DNA from: Veillonellaceae bacterium
Lineage (GTDB): Bacteria > Bacillota > Negativicutes > Veillonellales > Negativicoccaceae
DNA length: 44,849 nt
Direction: 5' to 3'
Assembly: GCA_022771805.1 (NCBI GenBank)
Contig: JALELM010000015.1
Coordinates: 1-44,849, forward strand
A model generated the notes under the pieces. It saw only the letters and a program-made list of their open reading frames with translations. It did no database searches and was not told where the DNA came from. Of the stretch, positions 41,184 to 44,849 are shown piece by piece. The translations under genes were made by a program, and so were the position numbers. Position 1 is the first letter of the stretch, and each line of letters opens with the position of its first letter.

Positions 41184-42980
41184 TCAGTCCTCCTTCAGGA
41201 TCGCCATAAACGCTTCCTGCGGAATTTCCACGCTGCCGACCTGTTTCATGCGCTTCTTGCCTTCTTTTTGCTTTTCGAGCAGTTTCCGCTTCCGCGTAAT
41301 ATCGCCGCCGTAGCACTTGGCAAGGACGTCCTTACGCATGGCCTTTACCGTTTCCCGCGCTACGATTTTATTGCCGATCGCCGCTTGAATCGGGATCTCA
41401 AACATCTGGCGAGGAATAATATCTTTCAATTTCAAGGCCAATGCCCGACCCCGGGAAGCGGCGTTGCTTCGGTGGACGATCACGCTCAAGGCATCGACCG
41501 GATCGCCGTTCAGAAGAATATCCAGCTTGACCATATCCGTGGGTCGGTAACCGATCAGTTCATAGTCCAGTGAAGCATAGCCCTTCGTATTCGACTTTAG
41601 TTTATCGAAGAAATCGTAAATGATTTCATTCAGCGGCAGGTAGTATTCCAACGCCACCCGCGTTTCGTCGATATACGTCATCGTGTGGTATTCGCCGCGC
41701 CGCTCCTGTGCCAGCTCCATCACGGTGCCGACCAAGTCGGAGGGCAACATGACCGTCGCCTTCACAAACGGTTCCTCGATGCGTTCGATCGTCGTCGGAT
41801 CCGGCAGCTTCGCCGGGTTCTCGACGGAGGTCATGGTGCCGTCCGTCGTATATACATGGTAAATAACCGAGGGTGCCGTCGTAATCAGCTGCAACTGGTA
41901 TTCCCGTTCCAGCCGCTCCTGCACCACGTCCATATGCAACAGCCCGAGAAAACCGCAACGGAAACCGAAGCCGAGCGCCAACGATGTCTCCGCTTCGTAG
42001 ACCAAGGCGGCATCGTTTAGGTGCAGCTTGTCCAATGCATCGCGTAAGCTGCCGTAATCATTGGGATCGATCGGATACAGCCCGCAATATACCATCGGTG
42101 TGGCTTTACGGTAGCCGGGCAACGGCTCGCTCGCCCCGTTGGCGACGGTTGTAATCGTATCGCCGACCGTGCAGTCATGGACATTTTTGATCGCGGCCGC
42201 CAGATAGCCGACCGTGCCGCAGGTAAGCGCATCCGTCACCGTCATTTGCGGCGCAAAGTAGCCGACTTCCGTCACCTCGAACGTTTTCCCGCTCGCCATC
42301 ATCCGAATCTCATCGCCGGTACGCAGCTCGCCCTCGTGAATGCGCACATAGGCAATGATGCCTTTATATGCATCGAAATGGGAGTCGTATACCAACGCTT
42401 TCAGCGGCTTCTCGCCATCATCCGCAGGCGGCGGAATCTTTTGCACGATCGCCTCCAGGACATCCGGCACACCCAGACCGGTCTTGGCTGAAATCAGCGG
42501 CGCATCCGATGTATCGAGGCCGATGACATTTTCAATTTCATGTTTGACCATGTCGGGATCGGCGCTCGGCAAGTCCACTTTATTGATCACCGGAATAATT
42601 TCCAGGTCATGATCCAAGGCCAGGTACACATTGGCCAGCGTCTGCGCTTCCACGCCCTGCGTGGCATCGACTACCAACAGCACGCCCTCACAAGCCGACA
42701 GACTGCGCGAAACTTCATAATTGAAGTCCACATGACCGGGAGTATCGATCAGGTGCAGCATGTATTCCTCGCCGTCCCGAGCCCGGTAACGCAGGCGTAC
42801 GGACTGGGATTTGATGGTAATCCCCCGCTCTTTTTCCAACTCCATGCTGTCCAACACCTGCGCCTGCATCTCACGCTGTGACAACGCCCCGGTCATCTCA
42901 ATCAGGCGATCGGCCAATGTCGATTTGCCGTGGTCAATATGGGCAATAATCGAAAAATTACGAATGTGTTCCGTCGACAC
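41184..42980 (-). CDS. lepA: Elongation factor 4 (LepA)
   Basis: Ribosomal back-translocase GTPase. The 598-residue protein has G1 [10 protein letters not shown]3 D-T-P-G-H-V-D-F and G4 N-K-V-D-L, then EF-G-like domains and the LepA-specific C-terminal domain. The start is judged to be GTG 42980, because GGAGAGG lies six bases before it and the product begins close to [11 protein letters not shown]. An ATG at 42995 has its only purine-rich site directly abutting. The gene overlaps the mnmA end by 23 bases. Confidence 0.96.
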
Positions 42981-44061
42981 GTTCTTCCTCTCCATCCTTT
43001 ATATAAATAATAGCGCCACCCAGGACGCGATCTCCCTCATACAACACCAGCGACTGTCCCGGCGTAAGTGCCCGTTGCGGCTCGTCAAAGACGACGCGGA
43101 TCCCCCGTTCGCCGTCCGGGTATACCGTACAAGCTGCCGGCTTGGCCGCATAGCGGATTTTCCCTTCCGCCCGCCGCGGCTCCCGCAGTGCTTCCGTTTC
43201 CGTGAACGAGGCCGCCAAACCGCAGACCTCGCGCCGGAACAACTCTTCATTCGTCCCGACGATCAAGCGGTTGTTGGCGGAATCCAACCGCACCACATAG
43301 AGTGGTGCAGCGGCGGCAATTCCCAGCCCTTTGCGCTGCCCGATCGTATACGCCGGCAGACCGCGATGACGACCGAGTACCTCGCCCGATGTCGTAACGA
43401 TTTCGCCCGGAATCATCGTCTGCGGTATATATCGCTCTAAAAATGCGATGTAGTCATTGTCGGGGATAAAGCAAATATCCATGCTTTCGGGTTTATTGTA
43501 TACCGGCAGCCCCAGCTCTTTGGCCAAGGCGCGCGTATCCTCCTTATGCAGGTCACCGAGCGGAAACAGCACATGCGGCAAGGTTCGCTGTGTCAAATGA
43601 TAGAGCACATACGACTGATCCTTGCGGGTATCCGCTCCTTTCCGCAGCTCATACAGTCCGCGTTCGGGATTATATTGCACGCGGGCATAGTGCCCGGTCG
43701 CCAGAAAATCGGCACCGAGCGCTCTCGCTTCTTCGTACATGGCGCCGAATTTGATCTGTTCATTGCACATCACGCAGGGATTCGGTGTAATGCCGGCAGC
43801 ATAGGCTTCCAGAAAATAAGTCACGATTTGTTTCTGAAATACATCCCGAAAATCCAGGACATAGTGCGGTATATTCAAATGATCGGCCACCCGCTTGGCA
43901 TCGCCGATCATGGAAGTGCTCGTCTCCCGAGTCGCGGCCGTAGCGTCAAATAAAAGCATCGTCACACCGATTACTTCATATCCTTCCGCCAGCATGCGTG
44001 CCGCCACCAGCGAGCTGTCCACACCGCCGCTCATGGCTACCGCTACACGCTTCTTTGTCAT
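42958..44061 (-). CDS. mnmA: tRNA-specific 2-thiouridylase MnmA
   Basis: Thiolates U34 of Lys, Glu and Gln tRNAs. The 367-residue protein has the PP-loop A-M-S-G-G-V-D-S-S, the catalytic Cys in N-P-C-V-M-C-N and the second Cys in D-I-C-F-I-P. The last 15 or so residues (after G-A-I-I-Y-I-K) extend past the usual end and overlap lepA. It diverges from lgt across a 115-base gap. Confidence 0.97.
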
Positions 44062-44119: not shown

Positions 44120-44148
44120 TTACCTCAAGGTAAAAAATCTTGTATAAT
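44120..44148 (+). promoter_or_regulatory. lgt promoter
   Basis: TTACCT (44120-44125), 17 bases, TATAAT (44143-44148). The -10 is perfect; the -35 matches three of six positions and coincides with one arm of an inverted repeat. Confidence 0.6.
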
Positions 44149-44156: not shown

Positions 44157-44176
44157 TGAGCACAAAGGAGATTTGT

Positions 44177-44849
44177 ATGCATCCCTACTTATTTTTTATC
44201 GGCGACTTTCCGATTCGAACCTATGGTTTATTTTTCGCCTTGGGCATTATCAGCGGCGGCATCGTCGCCTACTACTTCACGAAAAAAGACGGCCGTTACC
44301 ACGAATATATTTGGGATTTGACCGTCTATTGCGGATTGGCCGGTATCGTCGGCGGCCGCTTATGGGATGTCTTTTTTTTCGATTGGGATTACTACCGCGA
44401 TCATCTGTTGGAGATTCCCTTCGTTTGGCAAGGCGGCATGGCGATTCAGGGCGGCCTGATTTTCGGTGTCGTCACCGCACTCGTCTATCTGAAAAAACGG
44501 CGGGTGGATATCTTGGCCTTTGCCGATCTGGTTGCACCGGCAATCATCTTGGGACAAAGTGTCGGGCGCATGGCGAATTTGCTGAACGGCGATGCTTTCG
44601 GGCATCCGACCGGCGGCCCGTTCGGGATTCTCTACCCGGTCACCAGCCTTGCGTACCGCACCTACGGCGCGCAACCGCTCTGGCCGGCAGAAGTGTGGGA
44701 AGGTCAGGCGGATGTACTGATTTTTGTCGCTCTGCTGGCTTTTTCTCTGACCAGGCACGCTAAAGGTCAGGTATTTGCACTTTATATTATGCTCTATTCC
44801 CTTGCCCGCTTCTTTTTGGAATTCCTGCGCGGCGACTACGGTACCTTGC
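44177..44849 (+). CDS. lgt: Prolipoprotein diacylglyceryl transferase, 3' end beyond window
   Basis: Membrane enzyme attaching diacylglycerol to the lipobox cysteine of prolipoproteins. The open frame runs 224 codons to the window edge, starting at ATG 44177 with AAAGGAG six bases upstream. Visible are F-P-I-R-T-Y-G-L (11-18), several membrane helices, L-G-Q-S-V-G-R-M-A-N-L-L-N-G-D-A-F-G (125-142) with the family Arg and Asn, and L-A-R-F-F-L-E-F-L-R (209-218). The conserved I-H-G-G of most Lgt proteins reads I-Q-G-G (Gln91). The stop is outside the window. Confidence 0.93.
   Translation, partial: MHPYLFFIGDFPIRTYGLFFALGIISGGIVAYYFTKKDGRYHEYIWDLTVYCGLAGIVGGRLWDVFFFDWDYYRDHLLEIPFVWQGGMAIQGGLIFGVVTALVYLKKRRVDILAFADLVAPAIILGQSVGRMANLLNGDAFGHPTGGPFGILYPVTSLAYRTYGAQPLWPAEVWEGQADVLIFVALLAFSLTRHAKGQVFALYIMLYSLARFFLEFLRGDYGTL

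Follow-up and report, generated by a model that had tools for sequence, protein, structure and literature searches.

Prolipoprotein diacylglyceryl transferase (Lgt) is an antibacterial target with a disputed mechanism, and the dispute centers on His103 of the Escherichia coli enzyme. In the older view, this residue is the catalytic base, and His is given as the proton acceptor in the passages available from PMC8689077 and PMC8048626; the authors of PMC13251419, as far as the sections consulted go, favor a role in substrate positioning. Studies of E. coli Lgt excerpted from PMC4728403 have reported that H103A, H103N, H103Q, H103R and H103Y do not complement, that changes to the neighboring Y80, S101 and F102 result in loss of activity and that D88N has no effect. 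Tyr80 is named in the same excerpts as interacting with His103. According to the available parts of PMC13251419, some species have Y, W or F in place of H103, and H103Q grew better than H103A in a strain lacking both lgt and lpp. Replacement of His103 is thus a known kind of variation; these passages do not mention Gln, which is widespread at the site, as naturally occurring there. The passages searched yielded no mention of a natural Gln at residue 103 and no activity test of any Gln-type Lgt.

The window, i.e., the whole stretch of DNA analyzed here, is an entire contig of 44,849 nucleotides, the end of which truncates an lgt gene so that TM7 lies off the contig. The features of the locus are collected in Table 1. 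The first-pass annotation had credited the gene with its own promoter and ribosome site. The ribosome site is clear, but the promoter did not hold up to the same degree, as a TATAAT is readable while a promoter consensus scan returned 0 promoters. Beyond the divergent mnmA-like gene, the minus side carries lepA and then a HemN-like radical SAM gene.

Table 1. Features of the lgt locus, with positions counted from the first nucleotide of the window.
Feature	Position	Strand	Remark
lgt, prolipoprotein diacylglyceryl transferase	44177..44848	+	ATG at 44177, 224 codons, open to contig end
AAAGGAG ribosome site	44164..44170	+	6 bases before the lgt ATG; sequence reading
TATAAT, possible -10 element	44143..44148	+	sequence reading; no good -35 seen
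Trp63-Asp64 (E. coli Gly75-Tyr76), near TM2 end	44363..44368	+	both in 107/107 type-A rows
Phe68 (E. coli Tyr80 site)	44378..44380	+	107/107 type-A rows
Gln91, codon CAG (E. coli His103 site)	44447..44449	+	alignment; motif in 144/150 class genomes
Arg131 (E. coli Arg143)	44567..44569	+	alignment
Arg211 (E. coli Arg239)	44807..44809	+	alignment
mnmA-like gene (PF03054)	42958..44061	-	divergent from lgt

The window protein is Lgt by Pfam, NCBIfam and fold. It matches PF01790 with an E-value of 3.2e-57 (194.1 bits, cut-off 24.9) and passes the curated cut-off of TIGR00544 (152.6 against 118.9). Comparison of its AlphaFold2 model with E. coli Lgt (5azb) gave a Z of 20.8 and an rmsd of 2.6 over 221 aligned residues, with the next row at Z 7.7. 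A full-length relative with identical W-D...Q residues (L094) was modeled with a mean pLDDT of 91.7 and matched 5azb over 251 residues (Z 23.4, rmsd 3.0). The equivalents of Arg143, Arg239, Tyr235, Glu243, Arg246 and Tyr26 are all present in the window Lgt (alignment row L001). Thus, it shares with the E. coli enzyme (5azb/5azc) the fold, both arginines and the Tyr235, E243 and R246 equivalents, but has Gln, Asp and Phe at the His103, Tyr76 and Tyr80 sites, respectively, and Asp and Ala in place of Glu151 and Gly145. TM2 spans residues 42-68 in the model.

Residues 89-93 read A-I-Q-G-G, and Gln91 aligns without gaps with His103 inside the G-G-M-x-x-x-G-G block (E. coli numbering; PDB chain numbers are one higher in that alignment). 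With Gln91, the protein is not an Lgt of the E. coli HGGL type, which has His at 103. The replacement of His103 by Gln noted at first pass is therefore borne out, and R131, N-L-L-N and R-F-x-x-E are retained as had been stated.

The Gln variant is a normal, long-conserved form, common to the whole class of the window's organism and to many other lineages. The DNA pattern GGM[AS][IV]QGG was found in 144 of 150 class genomes, as against 0 of 150 for a reversed-pattern control. Three relatives of the same family have CAA, CAG and CAA at the site, and both Gln codons are in use across the class. All 31 loci read from the window's own genome and its order (L001-L031) have Gln. The six genomes missed by the pattern comprise one with no Lgt match (G092), one with a His type (G057, L032), one with a Gln type under another motif (G121, L044) and three others (G053, G071 and G125). 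The first of these, 98% complete at 1.3 Mb, has no PF01790 match and possibly represents a lineage without Lgt. Among 137 aligned class rows, which combine the recovered loci with 80 chosen from lists, not at random, residue 103 is Gln in 122, His in 14 and Tyr in one.

These 137 rows fall into three types. Type A, to which the window Lgt belongs, has W75, D76, F80 and R143 in all 107 rows. Type B (15 rows) has W75 and E76, and site 146 is not Asn; such proteins occur as a second, Gln-type Lgt in part of the class (L008, L042, L044, L045, L055 and others), where Glu occupies site 76 and site 146 is mostly Cys. Type C (15 rows) has His103 in 14 and Y or F at site 76 in all 15. These are also second Lgts (L033-L041, L043, L046, L192, L205 and L230), in which His103 is kept, with Tyr in L043. 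In type C, 14 of the 15 rows have Gln in place of Arg143, a residue reported to be essential and absolutely conserved, and Arg239 is changed to His in three.

A second lgt doing the work in place of the Gln form had been proposed, but none was found: the window's genome contains one PF01790 match at E<=1, as far as its 95% complete assembly goes. It also contains one LspA. Seven stretches on other contigs of the genome, 122,787 bases in all, yielded two clear lipobox proteins, which belong to ABC substrate-binding families (PF01497 and PF04392); a lipobox scan of the window itself found no convincing lipoprotein. One Lgt match is present in 38 of the 40 genomes comprising the window's own and its relatives, which makes the Gln type as sole Lgt the rule in the order. 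The exceptions are G033, which has an additional type-B Lgt, and G035. In the latter, an lgt is split over two frames (G035:C22:22089-22822), reflecting decay, error or recoding. The window Lgt is most likely the organism's housekeeping, working Lgt. The suggestion of an active Gln form in this lineage gains from this, as strict conservation in the only copy points to a functional enzyme.

Outside the class, contigs were scanned with a pattern that forces Gln and places its motif in surroundings different from those in the window (W-[KNED]-G-G). At least 118 stretches were recovered. Profile matching confirmed at least 115 of them as Lgt and rejected L065, L112 and L145. Among the matches listed are Erysipelothrix, Paenibacillus, Cohnella, Alicyclobacillus, Tumebacillus, Gastranaerophilales, Planctomycetota, Omnitrophota and Parcubacteria. 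Forty-four genomes, with completeness not given, were searched for Lgt copies; two were chance matches, and of the 42 genuine Gln genomes left, 18 had the Gln type as the only Lgt found, e.g., Erysipelothrix aquatica, E. anatis and Alicyclobacillus fructus. Paenibacillus species have a Gln type beside a Tyr type. In 177 rows sampled outside the class, with two places entered twice (L314/L331 and L335/L432), residue 103 is H in 104, Y in 37, Q in 17, F in seven, W in five, L in four, I and S in one each, and a gap in one. The description of His as essential to the family was not sustained by these counts, and Y, W and F had already been published at the site (PMC13251419, sections consulted). 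The essential His is an E. coli-type feature, not a family-wide one.

For the phylogeny, rows with fewer than 185 filled positions were dropped (452 of 466 kept), and the remainder was thinned at 72% identity to 259. Removal of the divergent L451, L467 and L471 left 256, and further thinning at 55% left 138. On the 138-row tree, for which the trait columns were left out, the Gln rows fall into 15 separate all-Gln clades, and the 256-row tree requires at least 18 changes of the Gln state; both counts are rough, as deep nodes are weak in such short proteins. Nine independent pairs stand on supported branches. Throughout the 96 thinned Gln rows, Arg is kept at site 143 in 94 and at site 239 in 93.

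The window Lgt, with Gln103, W75, a polar residue 76 and a supported placement, belongs to a Gln-type clade with W-[DEHQ] on TM2. In the tree without trait columns, the eight-row clade that holds it has an SH-aLRT of 97 and includes second Lgts of Paenibacillus and Lgts of Alicyclobacillus, which likewise have Gln103 and mostly W75 with D, E, H or Q at 76. Inside this clade, Tyr76 occurs in L362, which also lacks W75, and in two Bacilli rows. The Paenibacillus Gln type is an extra copy with Cys for Asn146, whereas the window Lgt is the only copy and has Asn. In the window Lgt, as in the Tyr/Trp/Phe-103 Lgts of Firmicutes and Actinobacteria described in the available text of PMC13251419, His103 is naturally replaced and the catalytic arginines are retained; unlike in those, the replacement is Gln, not an aromatic residue, and the protein belongs to a clade of its own, marked by W-[DEQH] on TM2.

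We consider it fairly probable that Gln91 is a fixed working residue at a site that serves to position the substrate rather than as the catalytic base, with the shared machinery driving the transfer. The residue-103 site would contribute hydrogen bonds that help keep the lipobox peptide and the TM2/TM3 geometry in place, and would not act as the general base that takes the cysteine proton. Binding of phosphatidylglycerol and the transfer itself would be carried out by Tyr16, Arg131, Asn134, Asn137, Tyr207, Arg211, Glu215 and Arg218 (Y26, R143, N146, N149, Y235, R239, E243 and R246 in E. coli). In the window's clade, the His103-Tyr80 contact of E. coli would be replaced, with Phe68 at the Tyr80 site, the acidic Asp64 one turn away on TM2 and a putative contact between Gln91 and Asp64. 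Tyr, Trp, Phe and Gln are poor bases. As site 103 varies between His, Gln, Tyr, Trp, Phe and Leu and sites 143 and 239 hardly vary, a positioning residue fits better than a universal base, which argues that histidine is not a universal part of Lgt chemistry. A similar case is made for His103 in the part of PMC13251419 consulted. Against the positioning role stands the failure of five E. coli substitutions, Gln included, to complement, which makes the site strict in that background (PMC4728403, excerpts). E. coli H103Q may fail since its surroundings are built for His, with Tyr76 and Tyr80 there versus Asp64 and Phe68 in the window Lgt. In addition, the TM2 partners go with Gln only within clades, and other Gln clades have Tyr or Phe at 76.

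The first alternative, which appears unlikely, is that Asp64 (Glu, Gln or His in sister Lgts), one turn from the Tyr80 site, serves as general base or proton relay and that Gln91 only orients it. It draws on site 76 being D in 107/107 type-A rows, E in 15/15 of type B and Y or F in 15/15 of type C, and on D, E or Q at this site in 34 of 96 Gln rows versus two of 160 others; all 34 rows that combine W75 with D/E/Q76 are Gln rows. However, site 76 is Tyr or Phe in the Gln clades of Erysipelothrix and Gastranaerophilales, so that Gln needs no such partner, and the association is clade-linked. A general coupling of Gln103 to an acidic residue 76 was likewise rejected as unsupported beyond clades, since W75 or D/E/Q76 differs in about 0.6 of 9 independent pairs, which is too rare for a test. 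The partner switch on TM2 thus appears to be linked to clade, and no general Gln-TM2 rule is claimed. If another residue does take over from His, the best candidate is Asp64. It is a tentative idea at most that the base moved from TM3 (His103) to TM2 (Asp64, or Glu, His or Gln in sisters) with Gln91 as its partner, giving one family with two placements of the proton acceptor.

It is very improbable that His103 is replaced by another conserved histidine, His76 on arm 2 (E. coli Asp88). This residue is His in 106 of 107 type-A rows, but His is about equally common there in His103 rows (34/103) and Gln rows (36/96), so it was rejected as a conserved His specific to the Gln type. The site also accepts Asn and Asp, like a helix cap, and D88N had no effect in E. 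coli (PMC4728403, excerpts). An inactive or decaying enzyme, or a second lgt doing the work, would accord with the lack of complementation by E. coli H103Q (PMC4728403, excerpts), but is scarcely credible for the only copy in a 95% complete genome with strict conservation across the class. A sequencing or assembly error at Gln91 has a negligible probability and is ruled out by Gln in 144 of 150 class genomes and the use of both codons.

A whole class and many separate lineages with Gln provide a natural test set for the dispute over His103. They also caution against assuming that inhibitors or models designed around this histidine will apply to Gln-type Lgts.

Two minor observations concern other Lgt genes. 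The Lgt of G357 (L416) contains an in-frame TGA, which may reflect decay, error or recoding. Lgt is said to be absent from archaea in the portion of PMC13251419 consulted, yet contigs titled Nanoarchaeia and Woesearchaeota carry a Gln-type Lgt (L164:432-1280 and L162:2237-3073), with PF01790 E-values of 1.3e-66 and 5.2e-67; these may be bin contamination. On the first of these contigs, a gene for ribosomal L16 (L164:3947-4504), best matched by models of the PRK04199/uL16_euk_arch set, is located 2.7 kb from the Lgt.
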